Positions 40,415-51,530 of a DNA stretch of 64,000 nt are shown piece after piece (position 1 is the first letter of the stretch; every line of letters starts with the position of its first letter). Location of the stretch: assembly GCF_037031225.1 (NCBI RefSeq), contig NZ_JAYEZN010000001.1:248001-312000 (forward strand), read 5' to 3'. Source of the DNA: Halorientalis sp. LT38. Lineage in GTDB: Archaea; Halobacteriota; Halobacteria; Halobacteriales; Haloarculaceae. Under the pieces are notes generated by a model. It was not told where the DNA came from. It was given only the letters and a program-made list of their open reading frames with translations, and ran no database searches. Position numbers and translations under genes: made by a program.

Positions 40415-41446
40415 CTATCGATCGCCGGTCGAGGCCACTTCGTCCGGTTCGGCGTCGGCCTCCGTCTCGACGGCGGAGGGGCGCTCCGACACCGGTTCGG
40501 CGCCGGCGCCCGAGTCGTCTCCGCCCAGCTGTTCGGCCAGATCCTCCAGTCGGCGGGTCTGTTCGCGGTTCAGCGTGACGATCATGTCCGAGAGGACGCC
40601 GAAGATCAGTAGCTGAATGCCGACGATGATCGTGAACACGCTCACGATGGCGATGACCTCGTGGGAGGTCCGGGGCGGGACGAACCAGTCGTAGGCGACG
40701 TAGGCCCCGAGGACGACGCCGACGAGCGAACTGAGCGTGCCGACGCTCCCGAAGTAAAAGAGCGGGTTGTTGGTCTTGGCCATCCGGTAGAGCGTGAGGA
40801 TGATCGTCGCGCCGTCGCGGAACGGGTGGAGGTTCGTCTCCGAGTCGTCGGGACGTGCCTCGTAGCGGATCGGGACGACCTCGGTCCGGACGCCGTGTTT
40901 GACGCACTCGACGGCCATCTCCGTCTCGATGCCGAAGCCCGAGGCGGTGAGCGAGAGGCGTTCGGCCGACTCGAGTGTAAACGCGCGATACCCGCTCAGG
41001 ATGTCCGCCAGGTCGCGGCCGTGGATCCAGCGGAACGCGCGGTTGATGACGCGGTTGCCGGTCTGGTTGAGCCGCGACATCGCCCCCGCTTCCATGTCGG
41101 CGAAGCGGTCGCCGATGACGTGTTCGGCGCGCCCCTCGAACAGCGGTTCGAGCATCGCGTCGGCGTCCTCCGCCCTGTAGGTGTCGTCGCCGTCGAGCAT
41201 CAGGACGTAGGGGGCCTCGACGTGCCGGAGGGCTTCTCGGACGGCCTGGCCCTTCCCCGATCCGGACTGCCGGATCACGCGAGCGCCGTGCTCGCGGGCG
41301 ATGTCGCGGGTCCCGTCGGTGGAGTCGCCGTCGACGACCAGCAGGTTCTCGAACCCGTGCTCGGAGAACGACTCGAGCACCGTGGCGATGGTCTCTGCCT
41401 CGTTCAGCGTCGGCACGAGTACACAGACCTCCGAGCGATCGGGCAT
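40415..41446 (-). CDS. aglJ: Glycosyltransferase family 2, AglJ-type (first sugar of N-glycan)
   Basis: 343 residues. GT-A fold: VCVLVPTLNEAETI, VVDGDSTDGTRDI, MLDGDDTYRAEDADAM (metal-binding Asp pattern), VIGDRFADMEAGAMSRLN, ILSGYRAF and ETEMAVECVKHG. Two membrane helices near the C terminus (SSLVGVVLGAYVAY, VIAIVSVFTIIVGIQLLIF), then an acidic tail. This matches haloarchaeal AglJ, which adds the first sugar to dolichyl phosphate in S-layer protein N-glycosylation. Located at the edge of a glycan gene island. Confident as GT2; AglJ orthology is likely. Confidence 0.85.
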   Translation of the reverse strand: MPDRSEVCVLVPTLNEAETIATVLESFSEHGFENLLVVDGDSTDGTRDIAREHGARVIRQSGSGKGQAVREALRHVEAPYVLMLDGDDTYRAEDADAMLEPLFEGRAEHVIGDRFADMEAGAMSRLNQTGNRVINRAFRWIHGRDLADILSGYRAFTLESAERLSLTASGFGIETEMAVECVKHGVRTEVVPIRYEARPDDSETNLHPFRDGATIILTLYRMAKTNNPLFYFGSVGTLSSLVGVVLGAYVAYDWFVPPRTSHEVIAIVSVFTIIVGIQLLIFGVLSDMIVTLNREQTRRLEDLAEQLGGDDSGAGAEPVSERPSAVETEADAEPDEVASTGDR

Positions 41447-41512
41447 CGTCGCCCACTCCTCACGGCGAGCGCAAAAAGGTACGGTTCCCGACGCGGACCC
41501 GTCCCCCGACGG

Positions 41513-41626
41513 TCAGTCCTCGTCGCGTTTCTCGCTCATGTGCTCCCACATCTCGGTACACCCGCACCCGTCGGTCACGTCCTGTAGATGCTCGTCCGCG
41601 TCGTCCGGCGTCCGGTTGTCCGACAT
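41513..41626 (-). CDS. 37-residue Cys-containing acidic microprotein
   Basis: ATG 41626 to TGA 41513. SDNRTPDDADEHLQDV, then DGCGCTEMWEHMSEKRDED. The CGC plus His/Glu suggests a metal or redox site. A 21-base palindrome sits just ahead of its ATG. It is divergent from the TrmB-family gene. Size and acidic composition fit a haloarchaeal small protein; function unknown. Confidence 0.65.
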   Translation of the reverse strand: MSDNRTPDDADEHLQDVTDGCGCTEMWEHMSEKRDED

Positions 41627-41627
41627 G

Positions 41628-41648
41628 GTTACTCAGACTCTGAGTAAC
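41628..41648. promoter_or_regulatory. Perfect 21-base palindrome matching the TrmB motif
   Basis: Arms GTTACTCAGA and TCTGAGTAAC around a single C. It contains TACT-N8-GAGTA, the motif described for TrmB of Halobacterium. It lies 2-22 bases ahead of the microprotein ATG and in the divergent region of a TrmB-family gene. Confidence 0.75.
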
Positions 41649-41715
41649 TCTATACGCAAGCAGCATTAAATACCTTTCGGCGGGTTTACAAGGCCGGCCG
41701 GCCAATTCGGCCGAC

Positions 41716-42564
41716 ATGAGCGACGAAGCGGCGGGCCTGCTGGATCGGCTCGGCCTCACCGAGTACGAGGCGACGGCCCTGCGGGAGCTGTTGACCCTGG
41801 GGCGAACCACGGCCCCGAACCTGGCCGAAGCGACGGGCATCCCGAAAGCGCGGATCTACGGCGTGCTCGACGCGCTGTCGGACCGTGGGTTCATCAAGAC
41901 GATTCCCGGCCGACCGAAGGAGTACCAGCCAAAGCCCCCGGACGAAATCCTCGATCGCGCGCGGGAGAATCGCCGCCAGGAGTTCGAGCAGTTCGCCCAG
42001 GAGATCGAAGACCTCCGCGAGTCGTTCCTGGCGGAGTTCGGACCGCGCTTCGAGCGCGCGAGCGAGGATATCACCCCCACCGAGGAGCTGTTCCACGTCG
42101 TCGACGTCGGCCAGCCCAGCGAGCGCGAGACTCGCCAGCTCTACGGCGACGCCGCGGAGCGAATCAGCGTCATCACCAAGAGTTTCGAGTACTTCGGCTC
42201 GGTCCGGCCGGCCTTCGAGGACGCCATCGACCGGGGGATAGACGTCGACGCGCTCTTTCTCCACCCCGACCTGCTGGAGCCGGAGAATCGACCGATCCAG
42301 TCGGAGATGGTCGAGCGGATGCGGGAGTCGTATCCCGCCGTGGACCTGCGGTTCAGCGAAGAACCGCTCCCCTGGCGCGGCACCGTCGCCGACCCGAGCA
42401 TGGACTACGAGACCGGGCGGGCGATCATCCTCGTCGAGGAGAAGGAGGTGCCGCTGCACATGCGCCAGGCCGCGATCACCGACAACGGGTCGTTCGTCGC
42501 CGGCCTCTCCCGGTACTTCGAACTGGTCTGGGAACACGAGAGCGTCCCGCCGACGGATCTCTGA
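41716..42564 (+). CDS. TrmB-family transcriptional regulator
   Basis: 282 residues. N-terminal winged HTH: LLDRLGLTEYEATALRELLTLGRTTAPNLAEATGIPKARIYGVLDALSDRGFIK, then a coiled-coil linker and a C-terminal domain (ISVITKSFEYFGSVRPAFEDAI, VDALFLHPDLLEP). Haloarchaeal TrmB proteins sense sugars and control central metabolism. This protein is shorter than the well-studied Halobacterium TrmB (about 355 residues), so it may be a paralogue with a different ligand. A TTTACAAG box is about 28 bases upstream. Confidence 0.9.
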   Translation: MSDEAAGLLDRLGLTEYEATALRELLTLGRTTAPNLAEATGIPKARIYGVLDALSDRGFIKTIPGRPKEYQPKPPDEILDRARENRRQEFEQFAQEIEDLRESFLAEFGPRFERASEDITPTEELFHVVDVGQPSERETRQLYGDAAERISVITKSFEYFGSVRPAFEDAIDRGIDVDALFLHPDLLEPENRPIQSEMVERMRESYPAVDLRFSEEPLPWRGTVADPSMDYETGRAIILVEEKEVPLHMRQAAITDNGSFVAGLSRYFELVWEHESVPPTDL

Positions 42565-42576
42565 GGACGACACCCC

Positions 42577-44001
42577 TCAGAGCGTGACGTTCTGCCTGAC
42601 AGTGGTTCGAAACCGGGCCGAGAGGACGACCAGGACGGCGAAGTACACCGCCGCGCCGACGGAGACGAGCAGGATCGCCTCGACCAGTCCGCGCTGGGAG
42701 AGCTCCAGCACCACGTCACGGACCGGGAACAGGACGCCAGCCATGACGAGCGCGGCGAGCAACTGTCGAGCGAGTTCGCCCCACGGGATCGGGAAGGCGA
42801 CGAAGCCCGTCAGCGCGTAGTAAGCGATCACGAGGCTGATGAGGGCAGCTGTGGCCGTCCCGACCGCGGCGCCGATCCAGCCGTAGAGAGAGACGAGCGC
42901 GACGTTGAGCACGACGTTGGCGGCGACGAAGACGAGGTTGATCCGGAAGGCCACGTCGGGCTCGTTGATCGCGTTCAGCGTCATGATGAACTGGGCCCCG
43001 TAGGCGTATATCAGCCTCGCGAGCACGAGGATCGCGAGGACGGTCGCGGCCCGCTGGAACTCCTGTCCGTAGAGCCCGAGGACGGACTCGCCGACGACGA
43101 GGACGCCGACGAACCCGGGGATCAGAAAGAGACCTGTGTAGGCCAGACCGTTGCCGAGGAGTTCGCCCACGGCGTCGCGCTCGTCAGAACTGTCGAGTTC
43201 ACTGATCGTCGGGAAAAGCGACTCGGAGATGGAGTTGCCGAAGATGGCGAGCAGCGAGGCGAGGTTCCACGCCACCTCGTAGTAGCCGATAAGACTGGAG
43301 CCGACGAACACGCCCAGAACCACCGTGTCCATCGCCGAGAAGGACCGCTGCTCGATCCCTGACAACCAGGAGTACTTGGTGAACCCGAGCACACTCTCCA
43401 AGTGCTCACGGGAGGGAAGCCGGGGTCGGGTCGACAGCAGCAGGAGGCCGGCGAGGATCGCCACGACCGCGCCGGCGACGTAGCCCCAGACGAGGCCGGC
43501 GACGCCGCCACCGATGATCCCGAGGAAGACCACGGCGAGTTGCACGCCGCTCCGGACCACTCGGTCGATCGGTCGGAGCAGTGCGGCGTAGTGGACCTTC
43601 TGCTCACCGTGGAGCGTCGAGGAGACGAGCGAGAACGCGAGGACGGCGGCCAGCGCGACGATCAACAGCAGCGTCCCCTCGAACCCGAGGTAGTCGTCGA
43701 GGTACGGGCGGCCCGCGATGAGGAGGGCGACGACCACGGCGTACAGCGCCCCCTGGATCAGGATGCCGGCGCCGAGGTAACGGTCACCATCGCCGACCTC
43801 GCTCACCCGCTTGATGACCGCCTGGTGGAGACCGGAGCCGAAGCCCGTCCGCAACCAGACGAGGACGGCGATGAAGAGGGCGTAGGTCCCGAGGGTGGCG
43901 CTGCCGAGCTCGCGGGCGATATACAGCGTCGCGACGAAGCCCGCGAGCGAGGCGAGCATCTCGGACCCGAAGTGAACCACCGAGGTCTGGCCGATTCGCA
44001 C
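42577..44001 (-). CDS. Polysaccharide/lipid-linked sugar flippase (Wzx/AglR-like)
   Basis: 474 residues with about 12-14 hydrophobic segments. QTSVVHFGSEMLASLAGFVATLYIARELGSATLG at the start is the typical MOP/Wzx first helix pair. In haloarchaea AglR-type members move dolichol-linked sugars across the membrane. GTG start at 44001. Ends just beyond the TrmB gene on the opposite strand; 79 bases from the deacetylase gene upstream. It probably serves the neighbouring glycan genes. Confidence 0.9.
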   Translation of the reverse strand: MRIGQTSVVHFGSEMLASLAGFVATLYIARELGSATLGTYALFIAVLVWLRTGFGSGLHQAVIKRVSEVGDGDRYLGAGILIQGALYAVVVALLIAGRPYLDDYLGFEGTLLLIVALAAVLAFSLVSSTLHGEQKVHYAALLRPIDRVVRSGVQLAVVFLGIIGGGVAGLVWGYVAGAVVAILAGLLLLSTRPRLPSREHLESVLGFTKYSWLSGIEQRSFSAMDTVVLGVFVGSSLIGYYEVAWNLASLLAIFGNSISESLFPTISELDSSDERDAVGELLGNGLAYTGLFLIPGFVGVLVVGESVLGLYGQEFQRAATVLAILVLARLIYAYGAQFIMTLNAINEPDVAFRINLVFVAANVVLNVALVSLYGWIGAAVGTATAALISLVIAYYALTGFVAFPIPWGELARQLLAALVMAGVLFPVRDVVLELSQRGLVEAILLVSVGAAVYFAVLVVLSARFRTTVRQNVTL

Positions 44002-44080
44002 AGGTCACTTGGCACGGGCCTCCGTAATAAGCGTCGTGAAACATCCGACCGGACGGTTCCCCACCGCGGTTCCCAGGCGA

Positions 44081-44965
44081 TCACCCGACCCGCCGAACCA
44101 GCGATCGGAGCCGGGCGGCGACGTCCGTCACCTCGAAGGCGACCGTCGAGGCGGGGAGACAGGCGTCGAGTCGCGGGATCGCGAGCGGGTTCGGCGAGGG
44201 ACCGACGAGTGACGGCTCGGAGGTGACGGCGATTTCGTGGGTCTCGGCGACCACTTCCGCCGCGCGCTCGTCGAACCCTCCGTAGGGGTAGCTGAAGCAG
44301 TCGACTGCCACGTCGAGGCGGTCTTCGAGCCACTCCTTCGCGTCCAGGATCTCGGCTGCCACGGCGCCCCGGTCGGGCAACTCCGCGAGGTTGGCGTGGG
44401 AGAACGTGTGGTTCCCGATCGTATAACGGTCCTGGGCGGCGATCTCCTGGAGCTGGTCGGTCGTCAGCGATACATCGTGTGCCGCCGCGCCGAGGTCGTG
44501 GCGCTCCCGTAACCGATCGAGATTCTCGTCGTCGACGAACGCGGAATTGACGAAAAGCGTCGCCGGCGCGTCGAACTCCGAAAGGACCGGGAGGGCGTGT
44601 TCGTAGACGTTCCGGAAGCCGTCGTCGAACGTGATCGCGACGCGTTTCGTCGACGTTTCGGTCGTCGCCAGCGTCTCCAGGTCGACGAGTTCGTACCGGG
44701 CCGCGATCCGACGGATCTGGTCGCGGAACACGTGCACCGGGACGTCCCAGCGGTAGTCGATGCCTGGGACGCCGCCGACGGAGTGGTAGAGGAGCACCGC
44801 GTCACGACGGTTTCCGAACAGTGACGCGAATCGGGTGCGCTGTTCGAGAGACGCTAGCGCGTGCCAGGCCCCGGGCCGGGACTCGGGCCACGACCGCGAA
44901 TCGGCGGACTCGGCGAACGGGGCCGGAACTGGCGTCACGGGTCGATTTCGGCAGGATGGCCACAT
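44081..44965 (-). CDS. Polysaccharide deacetylase (NodB-like)
   Basis: 294 residues. Catalytic motif 1 AITFDDGF, motif 2 GNHTFSHANL (HxxxH metal site) and motif 3 SYPYGGFD. An N-terminal segment of about 60 residues precedes the domain (AVLLYHSVGG begins it). Removes acetyl groups from sugars, here probably from a glycan precursor or exopolysaccharide. No clear signal peptide, so it may act inside. ATG 44965 is the likely start but an alternative further in is possible. Confidence 0.9.
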   Translation of the reverse strand: MWPSCRNRPVTPVPAPFAESADSRSWPESRPGAWHALASLEQRTRFASLFGNRRDAVLLYHSVGGVPGIDYRWDVPVHVFRDQIRRIAARYELVDLETLATTETSTKRVAITFDDGFRNVYEHALPVLSEFDAPATLFVNSAFVDDENLDRLRERHDLGAAAHDVSLTTDQLQEIAAQDRYTIGNHTFSHANLAELPDRGAVAAEILDAKEWLEDRLDVAVDCFSYPYGGFDERAAEVVAETHEIAVTSEPSLVGPSPNPLAIPRLDACLPASTVAFEVTDVAARLRSLVRRVG

Positions 44966-45164
44966 AATTCTTCGGTCGGCGAGGGTCCGGACGACGTCCT
45001 GCCCCCATCGTCCGCCGAGCGTTCCATCAGGGAGGAATGTAGGTCGTGTTTAGGTAATCAATTCGTGCCGACTGGGGTGTGCGAGCAGAACCACATGCTT
45101 CCAGAGGAGGGTGATCGAGAGTGTTCCCAGCCCAAGCGGGCAAACGACTCACCTGTTCCGTGAT

Positions 45165-46352
45165 TTAGGACGTATGGGCGTCGACGATACGCGAGAACCG
45201 CTGGAACTGACGATCGACGGTACACTGCTCGGCATTCTTCACCGCCGCGGTGGCTAACTCGTTCTGTCGATCGGAGGATTCCACGATAGCGGCCACAGTC
45301 GTAGCGAGGTCGGCGCCGTTGGAGTAGGACAGCGCCGCGCCATCCAACTCGTCGGGAATAGAGTAACGGTCCGGAAGAATCATGGGACAGGGGTGCATGA
45401 GCACGTCGAAGAGGACGCCGGAGTTCCAGGTCAGCCCCCAACGTTCAGCTCGTTCACCCTCGTCCTTGGAAATCGGATTGAGCAGGAGATCCGACCCCTG
45501 AAAGACTTCCGCGTAGGTGTCGGTCTCGATCCATTCTGTGAAATACTGGACATCGTAGCCCCGGTCCGCGAGATCTGCTGCCCGTTCAACGATCCGCTCG
45601 CCATAATCACCTTGCGGCCGACCCAATAACGTAAGTCGGATATCGTCACCGAATGTAGGAAGCAGTTCGGTACCAAATGCGTCCAAGACGACATCGTAGT
45701 CGCGACGATCGACGATGCTCCCTGGGATAGTTACCCGGACCGGACCGTCGTCGGTTGCTGCCGATGTCGTACCGGAGTTTGCTCCCTCGTCAGTCTCGAC
45801 GGGGTCGTACACCGACGGCGAGAGCGCATGAATAGACTGTGATAAAGTGTAGGTAGATTCGATATGTCGTCGTGACTGCTCGAACGGGACGAGGATCCCG
45901 TCCATCCGCTTCAGGATGGGCGGTCGAAAAATGTTTTTACAGTTCGTACTGATTGTCGTGGTCAATCCACCCCCCGTAGAGAAGACGAGCTGGCGTTCAA
46001 ACCAAGCGCGCGCATTGTGGGGCCAGAGTACAGTCGCGCAGTCGGGGTTGAACCGTAGGTATTTCACGTAATCTCCGATGGTTCCCTCAATCGTGTTGAT
46101 GAACAAAACGTCGAGGTCCCGTTTACACCGGCGTTCGATTCGGTCGAAGAACTCTCGACTGGGCTCGCCGACGACGGTCTCGATGTCGTCAGTAGGGACG
46201 TTCTCATCGACCTTCTCCATTCCCACTTCGGTGGTAAATAGCGTTGGCTGACCGTCACCGTGGGCGGCGATACGAAGATACCGGGTGAGCAGTTCCTGGT
46301 GCCCGTGGTTGTTGGTAAGTTCCAAAAAGCCAACTCTGGAGACATCCTGCAT
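45165..46352 (-). CDS. Glycosyltransferase (GT4-like fold)
   Basis: About 395 residues from ATG 46352 (GTG 46376 is an in-frame alternative). GT-B pattern: VGFLELTNNHGHQELLTRYL at the N terminus; the C-terminal half has RLTLLGRPQGDYGERIVERA, YFTEWIETDTYAEVFQGSDLLLNP and GVLFDVLMHPCPMILPD. Substrate unknown. Codon use here is richer in A+T at third positions than in flanking genes, suggesting transfer. The 200 bases downstream hold no gene. Confidence 0.8.
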   Translation of the reverse strand: MQDVSRVGFLELTNNHGHQELLTRYLRIAAHGDGQPTLFTTEVGMEKVDENVPTDDIETVVGEPSREFFDRIERRCKRDLDVLFINTIEGTIGDYVKYLRFNPDCATVLWPHNARAWFERQLVFSTGGGLTTTISTNCKNIFRPPILKRMDGILVPFEQSRRHIESTYTLSQSIHALSPSVYDPVETDEGANSGTTSAATDDGPVRVTIPGSIVDRRDYDVVLDAFGTELLPTFGDDIRLTLLGRPQGDYGERIVERAADLADRGYDVQYFTEWIETDTYAEVFQGSDLLLNPISKDEGERAERWGLTWNSGVLFDVLMHPCPMILPDRYSIPDELDGAALSYSNGADLATTVAAIVESSDRQNELATAAVKNAEQCTVDRQFQRFSRIVDAHTS

Positions 46353-46416
46353 TAGTAGCCCGGAATCGTGCCCCACAGATCAAAATTTCGGGAGGTTGAC
46401 GGCGTTGGACTCAGGT

Positions 46417-47673
46417 TCAGTCGTTAGCCGGCGGAGACTCGGTCCGGGTGAGAGGCCCACTTCCGATTCGTTCGACTCGACCGCCGAGTTCGAAGGCACC
46501 CCATAAGTCAACGATCAACCCATCCGACAGATCTCGAATCATGGACTCGCGATCGCGGAAGTACGTGTGATCGACGGCGAGAATGACTGCATCGGAACCT
46601 GGGATGGCCGTTTTCAAGGCCGCGTCGCGTTCGCTGGGTTCGATCGAGAGGGGCTCCACCGATTCGACGTCGATGCCCGCCCGTTCCAAATCGGAGATGA
46701 TATCGATCGTAGGCGAGGCGACTTCGTCGGGTACGTCACGCTTGAACCCGCGTCCAAGAACTACGACGGAGGACGGATCCAATTCAACGACGCGATTTAC
46801 CACCAGGTCCGCGTAGGCATCGTTCGCTGCGCGGGCCTCCGAAAAGAGGTCCGCTGGCAGGTCATCGACCCACTCTTCGGTTACGAAGTAGGGATCCTTC
46901 GTCAGGCACTTCCCACCGACAGTCCCGGGTGTCGGGATGTCGTTACGGGGGTACTCGTCATTGGCGAGCGCGATAGCACGATGAGCGTCGACGCCGAGGC
47001 GGTCGGCTGCGAGTGCGAACTGATTGGCGATGGCGAAACGCGCGTCGCGGTAGGCATTGTCGATCAGTTTGATGAACGCGGCCGTTTCGTGGTCTACGTA
47101 CCGCGGGTTCCCAGGGAGATCTTCCAGCAATACGTCGATAACGGCGTGAGGTCGTCCATTATTCGTCCCAACGATCTTCGGGAGCGACCGCAACTCCTCG
47201 ATTGCACGTCCCTCCGCCAACCGTTCAGGGAACGTAACGTAGTCGAGGTTGGCGGGTTCCGTGCCGACACCGTCTGCAATCATGACTCGGGTTCGCTCTG
47301 TGATCGCTACTGGAAGGGTAGTCCGATTGATAATCGTCTGGTCCGGATCGATGTGCTCACAGTAGCCAGTCAGGACATCGAGATAGGACTCGATCTGGTC
47401 TGCGGGCGCGTTCAGCGTCACGCCGACGACGTTTGCGTCGGCGACCCGACTCCGTTCAGTCGTCGCGGTTAGCTGGCCCTCTGCCACTGTTCTGGAGATT
47501 AGCTCGTCGAGGCCCGGCTCTTCGAAGGGTGCATCGCCGGCCATGATCGCATCAACGATCTCCTCGTCCACGTCGACACAGGTGACGGTGTGACCCTCAT
47601 CGGCCAGCACGGCCGCCCAGGGAAGCCCAATTCGCCCGGCTCCGATCACACAGATGTCGGTGTTATTCGTCAT
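46417..47673 (-). CDS. Nucleotide-sugar 6-dehydrogenase (UDP-Glc/UDP-GlcNAc/GDP-Man type)
   Basis: About 418 residues from ATG 47673. Rossmann DICVIGAGRIGLPWAAVLADEGH, catalytic cysteine in PGTVGGKCLTKDPYF, C-terminal VVVLGRGFKRDVPDEVASP. Oxidises a nucleotide-sugar C6 to the uronic acid. Its ATG overlaps the epimerase stop by eleven bases, so the two act together. AglM of Haloferax does the same kind of step, though the substrate here is not established. Same A+T-richer island. Confidence 0.9.
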   Translation of the reverse strand: MTNNTDICVIGAGRIGLPWAAVLADEGHTVTCVDVDEEIVDAIMAGDAPFEEPGLDELISRTVAEGQLTATTERSRVADANVVGVTLNAPADQIESYLDVLTGYCEHIDPDQTIINRTTLPVAITERTRVMIADGVGTEPANLDYVTFPERLAEGRAIEELRSLPKIVGTNNGRPHAVIDVLLEDLPGNPRYVDHETAAFIKLIDNAYRDARFAIANQFALAADRLGVDAHRAIALANDEYPRNDIPTPGTVGGKCLTKDPYFVTEEWVDDLPADLFSEARAANDAYADLVVNRVVELDPSSVVVLGRGFKRDVPDEVASPTIDIISDLERAGIDVESVEPLSIEPSERDAALKTAIPGSDAVILAVDHTYFRDRESMIRDLSDGLIVDLWGAFELGGRVERIGSGPLTRTESPPAND

Positions 47674-48637
47674 AGCGAGTCCTGTAGGCATCGATGTACC
47701 ATTCAAGCGTTTCTTCCAGGTCGTACTCAGGCGTCCAATTCAGGAGCCGTTCAGCTTTCGAACAGTCAGGCACGCGACGCGTTACGTCCTTCTCGAAACT
47801 GGATTCAGTATCGATTCGGGGCTCCCCGGATCGGCCGACCTTGTCCCAGACCAGTTCGATTAGTTCGATGATGCTGGTCTCACGTGTAGCTCCGATATTG
47901 ATCGCTTCATTGGCGGCCGATGATGCCTCCATGCAACGGTAGAGTCCCCGCACGGTGTCGCGAACATCAGTGAAACAGCGAGTTTGCTGTCCGCTCCCTT
48001 TCACTACGACGGGATCCTGTTCCTCGGTATCAATCTTGCGCACCATGTCAGGAATGACGTGTCCATGCCCGACCTCGTCGGCAGGCCAATCGCGCGGTCC
48101 GACCGCGTTAAAGATTCGCGGGGCGACATACTCGAGGCCATACTCGCGGTGATACGCGTCGCAGTAGTATTCTCCGTTGAGCTTTTGGAACCCATAGCTA
48201 CCTGGCGGCGGTGGAATCTCAGTAGTCATCGTTTCCGGCGTCGGGAAACGCTCGGCTTCGGCGTACAGCATGGACGAACTGGCAAACAGGAAACGATCGA
48301 TGTCGGCATCGACGCAGGCTTCGATGAGACGATGGTTGAGGCGGTCGTTTTCGGTGATGATCGTGGCCGGTTTCTCGCGGAGGTAGCCGACACCGCCGAT
48401 ACGGGCGGCGAGGTGATAGACCTTCGAGTGATCAGCGACGAGACTCTCCAGGTCCTCGTACGTCGTCAAATCTGCGTCGATCACCGTCAGGTCTGGGTGG
48501 TCGGCAACGGTGGCGAGGTTCTCCGGAGCTCCCCGCGACTTGTCGTCAACGACCGTGATCGTATGGTCCTCAGACAACAACAACTCAACGAGGTGTGAAC
48601 CGAGAAAGCCGGCCCCCCCTGTCACTAACGTACTCAT
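47663..48637 (-). CDS. NAD-dependent nucleotide-sugar epimerase/dehydratase
   Basis: About 324 residues from ATG 48637. Extended SDR: TLVTGGAGFLGSHLVELLL, LAARIGGVGYLRE and the catalytic SYGFQKLNGEYY (Tyr-x3-Lys). TRCFTDVRD and NIGATRETSI are family landmarks. Makes or interconverts a nucleotide sugar for the adjacent dehydrogenase or glycosyltransferases. First gene of the epimerase-dehydrogenase pair. Confidence 0.9.
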   Translation of the reverse strand: MSTLVTGGAGFLGSHLVELLLSEDHTITVVDDKSRGAPENLATVADHPDLTVIDADLTTYEDLESLVADHSKVYHLAARIGGVGYLREKPATIITENDRLNHRLIEACVDADIDRFLFASSSMLYAEAERFPTPETMTTEIPPPPGSYGFQKLNGEYYCDAYHREYGLEYVAPRIFNAVGPRDWPADEVGHGHVIPDMVRKIDTEEQDPVVVKGSGQQTRCFTDVRDTVRGLYRCMEASSAANEAINIGATRETSIIELIELVWDKVGRSGEPRIDTESSFEKDVTRRVPDCSKAERLLNWTPEYDLEETLEWYIDAYRTRYDE

Positions 48638-48962
48638 AGAAATGTAAGGGAGGTCGACACCCATAGCAATTTCGCTATTATCAAACAGGTCTCTTTCCGT
48701 TCGTTGCTACATAGGTTTCGATCCTACTCTTCGGTCGATCAGGAAACATTCCTCTCCGCCTGGATCACTGGGGCTGGGGTGGTTCGTGCCTCGCTGGGGA
48801 ATGTAACCTGCATGACCGCAAGGCACTGGATCGAATCCGTCGATCGGCCGGGCTAGATGCGGGCCAGCTGAGTCGGGAGAGCTGACACCCGTCGACCGCC
48901 AACCTAGACACCGCCACTGTCGAACCCAAACAGACTAACCTCGGGACGCGATACTCGGACCC
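48638..48962. other. 325-base gap between divergent glycan genes
   Basis: The sequence is less GC-rich than its surroundings, particularly 48655-48760. No convincing ORF, tRNA, insertion-sequence end or repeat was seen. It should hold the promoters of the epimerase operon (minus) and the sulfatase-fold gene (plus; GATACTC about 15 bases before ATG 48963 is a weak candidate). Confidence 0.5.
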
Positions 48963-50408
48963 ATGAACGTAGTGGTGGTCGTCGTCGACGCGCTCCGGGC
49001 GTCCGACGTGGGGTGTTACGGGCGCGACGCCGACATCACGCCGAACGTCGACGCGCTCGCGGAGGAGTCGATGGTCTTCGAGCACTGCTTCGCGGCCTCG
49101 AACAAGACCGACGTGAGCATGTCCTCGCTCATGTCCGGGAAGTACCCGCGAGAACACGGCATCACGCACCACGGCACCCGCCACAACGAGGGGAACCTGC
49201 AGCGTCTGGAGGAGCGGTCGCCGAAGTTCCTCCCCGAACTGCTTCAGGACGCGGGGTACGAGACCATCGGCGTCGACTGGATGGGGCGCTGGCACGAGTG
49301 GGGCTACGACGACTACGGCGTCGAGAGCGGCGGACGCAACGTCCAGGACACCGGTGACACCCTCGCCGAGAAGGCGTTCAACCACGCCAAGGACGCCGTT
49401 CTCGAACTGCCCGACCCGCTCCTGACGCCGATCATGAAGCAGTACTACCGACGCATGGGCTACGACGACTTCCGCGTCGACTGCGAGGGACTGACCGACA
49501 TCGCCATCGACCGCATCGACGACGCCGACGACCCCTTCTTCACCCTGCTGCACTACTGGGACGTCCACCCGCCCTATCTCCCACCGGAGGAACACCAGGA
49601 GCAGTTCGAGTACGACGGAGAGGACGAACACCTATCGAAGTACTTCGGCGATGGCGCGAAGGGACCGCTCTCGGCGGCGTTCCAGGCCTACGCTCGCGGC
49701 GAGCAGACCCACATGAGCGACGCGAAGGAGGCCTACGACGGGGCTATCTCCTGGGTCGACGAGCAACTCGGTCGGCTGCTCGACTACCTCCGCGAGGAAG
49801 GCCTCAAGGAGGAGACGCTGGTCGTCGTCACCGCCGATCACGGCCACAACTTCGGCGAACACGACATCTTCTCGGACAACGTCGGCCTCTACGACACGTC
49901 GATTCAGGTCCCCCTTATCGTCTCCCACCCGGAGCACGACCCCCACCGAATCGACGGGATCGTCCAGTTGACCGACGTCGCGCCGACGATCATGGATTAC
50001 GCTGGCGTCCCGATCCCCGACGACGTGCGAGGGAACGTCCTCCCGGAAACCCGGGAGTACGCGTTCGCCGAGAGCATCGAACACCGGATGCAGATGATCC
50101 GGACGGACCGCTGGAAGCTGATCGTCCCCCGCGACGTGGACTACCTGCAGAGCCGCCGGTGGTACGACGGCGACGGCACCCCAGAACTCTACGACCTGGA
50201 GGCCGACCCGGGCGAGACCACGAACGTCGCCGCCGAGAACCCCGAGGTGCGCGAGCGACTGGAGGGGATGCTCACCGACGAACTCGACCGGCAGGAGGAG
50301 AACGCCCGCTCGGGGAGCAGCCGTGACGTCGACATCGAGGACGACGACATGGACGACATCAAGTCCCGTCTCAACGCGCTCGGGTACGCCGACGACGGGA
50401 ACGTGTAG
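48963..50408 (+). CDS. Sulfatase/alkaline-phosphatase superfamily protein with Thr at the nucleophile site
   Basis: 481 residues. NVVVVVVDALRASDVGCYG (metal Asp) and VVVTADHGHNFGEHD (DH metal site) mark the superfamily. The usual C/S-x-P-x-R is replaced by TDVSMSSLMSG, placing Thr where the nucleophile belongs; there is no formylglycine-type Cys. This is like phosphoethanolamine/phosphotransferases of the same fold, so it may act on a phospho-linked glycan rather than a sulfate. The end has acidic DDDMDDIKSRLNALGY, typical of haloarchaeal members. Cytoplasmic as seen. Confidence 0.85.
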   Translation: MNVVVVVVDALRASDVGCYGRDADITPNVDALAEESMVFEHCFAASNKTDVSMSSLMSGKYPREHGITHHGTRHNEGNLQRLEERSPKFLPELLQDAGYETIGVDWMGRWHEWGYDDYGVESGGRNVQDTGDTLAEKAFNHAKDAVLELPDPLLTPIMKQYYRRMGYDDFRVDCEGLTDIAIDRIDDADDPFFTLLHYWDVHPPYLPPEEHQEQFEYDGEDEHLSKYFGDGAKGPLSAAFQAYARGEQTHMSDAKEAYDGAISWVDEQLGRLLDYLREEGLKEETLVVVTADHGHNFGEHDIFSDNVGLYDTSIQVPLIVSHPEHDPHRIDGIVQLTDVAPTIMDYAGVPIPDDVRGNVLPETREYAFAESIEHRMQMIRTDRWKLIVPRDVDYLQSRRWYDGDGTPELYDLEADPGETTNVAAENPEVRERLEGMLTDELDRQEENARSGSSRDVDIEDDDMDDIKSRLNALGYADDGNV

Positions 50409-50423
50409 GACTGGGAGCCGAGC

Positions 50424-51530
50424 TCACTCCTCGTCGGTCGCGTCGGCCACCGCGTTCAATGCTTCCAGATACGCGTCCAGGCTGTGGCTGCGCGTGAACC
50501 GCTCGACGTCGGCCTCGTCGGGAGCGTACTCGAACTCGCCGCTCCGGATCCGCTCGAGGGCGTCGGCGACGCCGGCGTGGTCGTCGGGATCCACGACGAT
50601 GCCGAACCCGTTCTCGGTGATCACGTCGGCGACCCGGAAGCTCGGGTCCACGATGGCGACGATCGGCCGACGCGCGCCGATGTAGTCGTACAGCTTGGAG
50701 GGGAGGTTGTGCTCGTTCCGCGGGTCGTCGCCGCCGACGTATAGAAGCGCGTCCGAGCCCTTCAGCTCGGCGACGATCTCCTCGTGCGGGACGAAGTCGT
50801 GTGGTTCGACGTAGTCCGTGACGCCGTGATTCGCGGCCGCTTCGGCGTAGGACTCGTTCCAGTCGCCGAAGAAGTGAGCCCGGACGTCAGCGTGCTCGCC
50901 GCGGGATTCGACGTAGTCGCTCAGCCCCCGGAGGAACGTGTAGGGCTCGATCCAACCCTCGTAGAACGACCCGGCGTAGGTGACGGTGAACTCCTCGTGA
51001 CTCGCGGGGTCGACCGACTCGAAGCTCTGCTCGTCGAACCCGATCGGGGGGAGCTTGCGAACTCGATCACTCGGCACGTCGGGATACGTCTGTTCGAAGT
51101 AATCGTCGGGGATCTGGATACCGTCGTACCAGACAACGCGGTCCGCGTGTGTGAGGATGTAGCCTTCCAGCCGCCGGCGGATCCGCGCCGCGACGGAGTC
51201 GGGTTCGACGTCGGGGTTCTCGACCAGTGGGTCCCGGAACTCGGCGATCCATGGGGTGCCGGTCAGACGCGCGAGAATCCCGCCGGCGATCTGGAGTTGG
51301 GGCGGATTGCTGACGGAGTTGATCACGTCCGCCCGTCGGGCCGCCCGGAGATTCCGTACGATCCCGAGCGGCGTCCCGACCGGAGTCGGCTCGACGTACC
51401 CGACTCGCAGGTTCCAGCCGCGCTCGGCCAGCCGTTCCGCCCGGGTCTGGAACTTGGCCGCCCGGCCGGAGTTCTCGTCGAGTCGGCGGTTCGAGACGAG
51501 CAGGACGGTCCGGGAGTCGTCGGCACTCAT
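50424..51530 (-). CDS. Glycosyltransferase family 4-type
   Basis: 368 residues. GT-B fold: TVLLVSNRRLDENSGRAAKFQTRAERLAERGW at the N terminus; FTVTYAGSFYEGWIEP, then KGSDALLYVGGDDPRNEHNLPSKLYDYIGARRPIVAIVD and ITENGFGIVVDPDDHAG (donor-binding Glu region). Follows the second sulfatase-like gene by 19 bases on the minus strand. Adds a sugar in the surface-glycan pathway; donor and acceptor are unknown. Confidence 0.88.
   Translation of the reverse strand: MSADDSRTVLLVSNRRLDENSGRAAKFQTRAERLAERGWNLRVGYVEPTPVGTPLGIVRNLRAARRADVINSVSNPPQLQIAGGILARLTGTPWIAEFRDPLVENPDVEPDSVAARIRRRLEGYILTHADRVVWYDGIQIPDDYFEQTYPDVPSDRVRKLPPIGFDEQSFESVDPASHEEFTVTYAGSFYEGWIEPYTFLRGLSDYVESRGEHADVRAHFFGDWNESYAEAAANHGVTDYVEPHDFVPHEEIVAELKGSDALLYVGGDDPRNEHNLPSKLYDYIGARRPIVAIVDPSFRVADVITENGFGIVVDPDDHAGVADALERIRSGEFEYAPDEADVERFTRSHSLDAYLEALNAVADATDEE

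Follow-up and report, generated by a model that had tools for sequence, protein, structure and literature searches.

The locus considered here raises the question of what is controlled by a perfect palindrome lying between the divergent genes of a TrmB-family regulator and a microprotein, and by which protein it is bound. The window, by which we mean the whole stretch of 64,000 nucleotides of Halorientalis sp. LT38 that was analysed, contains the following features at this site:

41513..41626, minus strand: gene of the 37-aa microprotein, its ATG beginning 1 base past the operator
41628..41648, no strand assigned: operator GTTACTC-N7-GAGTAAC, a perfect palindrome with 10-base arms (from sequence and genome searches)
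41666..41679, minus strand: putative BRE/TATA of the microprotein promoter, CGAAAGG-TATTTAA as read on the minus strand
41685..41691, plus strand: putative TATA-like box TTTACAA of the regulator promoter, 25-31 bp before the ATG, assigned by sequence
41716..42564, plus strand: TrmB-family regulator of 282 aa (profile search, structure model, orthologs)

The original prediction described a palindrome containing TACT-N8-GAGTA within an 89-base divergent region. Both are present exactly as described, since GTTACTCAGA-C-TCTGAGTAAC forms a perfect 21-bp palindrome at 41628-41648 with this motif inside it, and the divergent region extends from the microprotein ATG at 41626 (minus strand) to the regulator ATG at 41716. 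The motif fits the Halobacterium TrmB form, which the accessible text of the source gives as TACT-N7-8-GAGTA (PMC4158304). With up to three mismatches allowed, the 21-bp palindrome has no second match in the window, none in 100 window shuffles, and remains a single match across the 3.58-Mb genome. By itself the short TrmB motif is weak evidence, since it occurs at 13 places of the genome against 6 control rows. Its N7 spacing gave 7 rows in the window, none of them at the palindrome, and 7 of 100 shuffles equalled this; N8 is the correct spacing here. The palindrome is one instance of the longer operator GTTACTC-N7-GAGTAAC, for which a genome search allowing up to two mismatches returned exactly two perfect places and no controls. 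It is very probably a genuine operator.

The second perfect operator (G000:C1:1479251-1479271, locus L117) lies 2 bases before the ATG of a 389-aa enzyme, so that the possibility of the site being found nowhere else in the genome can be discarded. The enzyme is of the NAD-dependent epimerase type and is called sqdB-like here. Its best NCBIfam model is the UDP-sulfoquinovose synthase NF041015 (E 1.1e-107, 360 bits, nearly the full model), below the equivalog cut-off of 575 bits that is reached in none of the 391 class genomes, and among solved structures Arabidopsis SQD1 is the closest (E 9e-74). The translation carries YHLTK, which fits YxxxK, the signature of short-chain dehydrogenases. By these matches the sqdB-like protein resembles the maker of a sulfur-bearing surface sugar. 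A gene for a 314-aa sugar epimerase begins one base past its stop. In the window genome the microprotein gene adjoins the regulator gene, and the sqdB-like gene is 1.19 Mb away from it; because of this distance, regulator and sqdB-like gene are linked there through the operator only. The surroundings of the regulator gene (40415-51530) are, judged by gene content, a surface-glycan cluster: the regulator gene is flanked by a family-2 glycosyltransferase and a flippase, and after the flippase follow genes for a polysaccharide deacetylase, UDP-glucose dehydrogenase, an epimerase, a sulfatase and a group-1 glycosyltransferase.

The combination of operator, short regulator and the two putative target genes is found in many other salt-loving archaea. 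Exact operators were found in 115 of the 391 class genomes, with one to three in each, while the reversed-pattern control gave 0 in every row. A regulator ortholog (E<=1e-40, including a few fragments, e.g. in G012 and G050) is present in 137 of these genomes and an sqdB-like gene (E<=1e-60) in 155; both occur together in 133, the regulator alone in 4, the sqdB-like gene alone in 22 and neither in 232. These counts were taken over related genomes with kinship uncorrected, and a Fisher value calculated from them is no true probability. All 115 genomes with an exact operator encode the regulator and none of the 254 regulator-less genomes has the operator; the site is associated with the short regulator and not with full-length TrmB. 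Of the 137 regulator genomes, 22 lack an exact operator; a form with one mismatch is present in 20 of them, and at each of the 20 loci read, with one locus taken from every genome, it stands at the start of an sqdB-like or microprotein gene. In the other two, G351 and G353, the regulator is present and no operator was found within one mismatch. G012 holds a regulator fragment only, with internal stops (G012:C1:2351645-2352118), and has kept one operator before its sqdB-like gene, possibly due to recent loss of the regulator.

A search with the alignment of the regulator returned 57 loci from named haloarchaea, at which we scored a microprotein within 900 bp and an operator with at least 12 of the 14 arm bases and a spacer of 7. 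Microprotein and operator were found together at 42 loci, neither at 13, the microprotein only at 1 and the operator only at 1, and the regulator-microprotein pair is conserved in relatives together with its palindrome. In 12 of the 13 genomes lacking both at the regulator, a whole-genome search detected operators with at most one mismatch. Nearly all of the 18 places read there are directly before an sqdB-like gene (with an ambiguous start codon in L130) or a microprotein gene, the exceptions being L136, ahead of another epimerase, and L137, each with one mismatch. Since the operators of these unpaired regulators precede the sqdB-like gene or a distant microprotein gene, the site appears to belong to the targets, and autoregulation would be at most a by-product of divergence. 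The proposed autoregulated module is therefore not borne out as a conserved feature.

In total, 150 distinct operators were read out of about 187 (a hand sum over the class table). With 83 operators before sqdB-like genes (start 1, 2 or 4 bp away) and 63 at microprotein starts (55 with a divergent regulator, 8 at the microprotein alone), the microprotein cannot be called the sole main target, as had been suggested; the sqdB-like gene is at least as frequent. The remaining 4 are at neither target. At L197 the operator stands ahead of a 79-codon frame, by eye the first sqdB-like codons fused to another frame and probably an sqdB-like remnant. L186 (1501-1521, G366) has an exact operator ahead of a 420-codon ORF, a possible third target, while in L238 and L239 (1301-1321; G054 and G056, one genus) exact operators follow a TATA-like stretch with no recognised gene behind. 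Microprotein and sqdB-like genes are direct divergent neighbours in several genomes, with one operator between them in L298, L299 and L305 and two in L310 and L312. Outside the window's family, 53 of the 62 regulator copies compared have an sqdB-like gene at most 10 kb away; in L108 the order is sqdB-epimerase-epimerase-regulator in a single direction, and L093 and L112 have the same genes together.

Seen from the gene, the BRE/TATA of the microprotein sits upstream of the operator, a position conserved over the 63 microprotein sites. From the TATA-like element to the start of the operator there are mostly 11-18 nt at sqdB-like genes and mostly 20-26 nt at microprotein genes. Since the distance from TATA to transcription start is about 26 nt in archaea, as stated in the accessible part of PMC10817205, the operator would cover or touch +1 at both targets. 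According to the available sections of two studies, TrmB-family proteins repress when bound downstream of the TATA and activate when bound upstream (PMC4158304, PMC10817205). We propose repression of both targets because the operator is downstream of the TATA and over the putative start, and by analogy with this rule repression is the likeliest mode. The regulator, presumably as a dimer, would bind GTTACTC-N7-GAGTAAC over the transcription start of the two genes and, when bound, repress the microprotein and the UDP-sulfoquinovose synthase homolog. The PLD-like C-terminal domain would sense the signal for release, for which a sulfosugar, a nucleotide sugar or a sulfur cue is plausible. We are fairly confident that the palindrome is the operator of the adjacent short regulator, which represses the microprotein and sqdB-like genes until such a signal releases them. 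Most likely, the locus encodes a local repressor of the TrmB family, with sulfosugar synthesis and a co-regulated microprotein under its control, and not a part of the glucose TrmB regulon.

The same regulator could also use these sites to activate at least one target or to act both ways. Both directions are known for haloarchaeal TrmB proteins, and HAH_0188 breaks the position rule in the accessible text of PMC10817205; furthermore, the promoter of the regulator gene itself has the operator on the upstream side of its TATA-like box, which leaves the effect there uncertain. In both classes of conserved targets, however, the operator is downstream of the TATA and over the putative start, which makes activation unlikely.

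Binding by the full-length TrmB of the same genome (L009, PF11495-positive) would place the site in the canonical glucose/gluconeogenesis regulon. The core TACT-N8-GAGTA does fit the Halobacterium TrmB motif, but the presence of the operator tracks the short regulator, whose HTH (PF01978, E 5e-19, 68.4 bits vs a gathering score of 25.6) is only 29% identical to the full-length TrmB HTH over 99 residues. In genome G013, which we take to be Haloarcula hispanica, the full-length TrmB genes fall where four HAH tags predict. One of its two operators precedes the sqdB-like gene (469 kb), the other stands at the microprotein/regulator pair (1153 kb); these positions calibrate to about HAH_0497 and HAH_1214. 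For Har. hispanica TrmB, 15 ChIP peaks are given in the accessible part of PMC10817205 (Table 2), HAH_0497 and HAH_1214 not among them, and the missing peak at either operator speaks against binding by full-length TrmB, as far as the assumed genome identity and tag calibration hold. In G013, fbp is the one TrmB target with a known strong peak whose gene was located close to its predicted tag; its 20-kb stretch contains no TACT-N6-10-AGTA, and TACT-type sites were likewise not found in the 20-kb stretches fetched for gapII and ppsA (fbp and a ppsA-like gene were located by motif, gapII was not located). In favor of TrmB, two small proteins, HAH_0188 and HAH_2805, are listed as its targets in Har. 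hispanica (PMC10817205, accessible part). Altogether we consider binding by full-length TrmB very unlikely, and the short regulator is probably the binder.

That the palindrome acts as an RNA hairpin within the microprotein mRNA leader, as the perfect inverted repeat immediately before the start codon might suggest, is hardly credible, since identical arms stand before sqdB-like genes, where the putative start site falls within the palindrome, since one-mismatch variants break the symmetry of the arms (paired compensation was not seen, though exact-arm searches could not reveal any), and since presence of the palindrome depends on a DNA-binding gene.

If the short regulator binds the operator, which signal could it perceive? 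The sugar-binding domain PF11495, for which full-length L009 scores 216 bits, was not matched, and in NF047392, the haloarchaeal TrmB equivalog, the regulator reaches 35.6 bits in the HTH only, below the cut-off of 500 bits. Its predicted architecture comprises a winged HTH (residues 9-75), a long helix (75-115) and a PLD-like C-terminal domain (about 124-280). The AlphaFold2 model has a pLDDT of 80.9 and a pTM of only 0.52. The closest whole-chain structure is TrmBL2 (Z 16.9), and the rmsd of 12.8 over 253 residues indicates that the domains are arranged differently in the model. Because of this arrangement, whole-chain Foldseek TM-scores were low (about 0.4), and we relied on comparison per domain. 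The modelled C-domain superimposes on the TrmB sugar-binding domain 2f5t with Z 14.0 and rmsd 2.5 over 128 residues, the alignment being confined to 2f5t residues 110-242. G320 and E326, the sugar residues of TrmB, belong to its distal part according to the accessible sections of PMC4158304 and PMC10817205. Since both lie past TrmB residue 242, where the alignment ends, the known sugar pocket cannot be complete in the regulator as modelled. The regulator has no PF11495 sugar domain and is predicted to retain the PLD-like half of TrmB, and a changed ligand, as supposed in the original prediction, is compatible with the absent distal part. Among the C-domain residues conserved at >=95% in 54 orthologs are R212, R221, D226, H248 and R250; our guess is an anionic ligand bound in a positively charged pocket. 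An OxsR-like cysteine redox switch was ruled out for the window regulator, which has no Cys (of the 54 aligned orthologs, 36 have none and 18 have one), as was PLD-type catalysis, the HxKxxxxD motif being absent from the C-domain. The same genome encodes another short TrmB-family regulator with a DUF7436 C-domain (L008 1492-2295, G000:C1:2815.4 kb).

The window microprotein, 37 codons with a CGC motif, has no match in Pfam or NCBIfam. The two C(P)XCG motifs of haloarchaeal zinc-finger microproteins are not found in it, as it has a single CGC. Operator-linked microproteins and their relatives share the pattern HL-x3/4-DG-x-GC-x-E. In the 63 operator-linked proteins the second Cys is always present, while the first position is C in 35, A in 27 and D in 1, and in an alignment of 58 distinct sequences H, DG and G, E, S and R are also invariant. 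We found relatives in 138 of 146 family genomes; among the 18 family genomes listed as regulator-less, 17 have them, and judged from this distribution the microprotein family is not dedicated to the regulon. Given how much more widely these relatives are distributed, it is the regulator, and not the microprotein, that the operator follows. Operator-less paralogs carry other elements upstream, which suggests that they answer to different regulators; in L037-L039, L041, L042 and L053 a conserved repeat of the GTAACT-N3/4-AGTAACTAC type stands just before the start of an operator-less paralog. Membership of HAH_0188 and HAH_2805 in this family was not shown, with tag positions being estimated: no family member was found at 165-185 kb of G013, and the member at 2706 kb is not divergent from any recognisable ribC. 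Its neighborhood alternates between the regulator and the sqdB-like gene, and this context suggests that the microprotein takes part in the same process. As a tentative and rather unlikely extension, it could be a dedicated partner of UDP-sulfoquinovose synthesis, for example a factor for sulfur/sulfite handling or a brake on the enzyme via the invariant cysteine, with the regulator sensing sulfosugar or sulfur supply. If true, the module for sulfosugar control would be complete and would include a microprotein.

In the literature searched, which mostly excludes subscription journals, we found no description of this regulon and none of a regulator of archaeal sulfosugar synthesis; the paper in which both TrmB and UDP-sulfoquinovose synthase occur treats the two separately. 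For probable sulfosugar synthesis in a large archaeal group, our data name an operator together with a regulator and two kinds of targets. They also link a strongly conserved microprotein with a definite pathway, which opens its function to testing. Moreover, they set apart two TrmB-type regulons with common half-sites, but different extended operators and domain content, and this pair could be used to study how cross-talk between paralogous regulators is avoided in archaea.

With respect to known systems, the sqdB-like enzyme is a homolog of the SQD1/Agl3 UDP-sulfoquinovose synthases (NF041015, Arabidopsis SQD1), but stays under the NCBIfam equivalog cut-off, and its function is read from homology. 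OxsR of Haloferax volcanii is, like the window regulator, a haloarchaeal member of the TrmB family. It is described in the accessible part of PMC9426492 as a thiol sensor with one domain, for which C24 is required and which uses a CG-rich motif; it depends on cysteine, while the window regulator has none. The TrmB proteins of Halobacterium salinarum (VNG_1451C) and Haloarcula hispanica (HAH_1548) share with the regulator the PF01978 HTH and palindromic TACT/AGTA half-sites in a spacing that fits its operator. In contrast to them, the regulator has no PF11495 and its site is extended to GTTACTC/GAGTAAC; its operators overlap no Har. hispanica TrmB peak as far as the estimated coordinates allow, and instead of gluconeogenic genes its putative targets are the sqdB-like and microprotein genes. 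The regulon thus probably consists of sulfosugar synthesis, by homology, and the microprotein, unlike the TrmB glucose regulon. The best match of the regulator in sequence and fold is TrmBL2 (PDB 5box, 5bqt), which likewise has a short architecture, with an HTH and a C-domain that lacks the distal sugar-binding part. However, TrmBL2 is titled a chromatin protein, whereas the regulator goes with a specific palindromic operator at few sites per genome.
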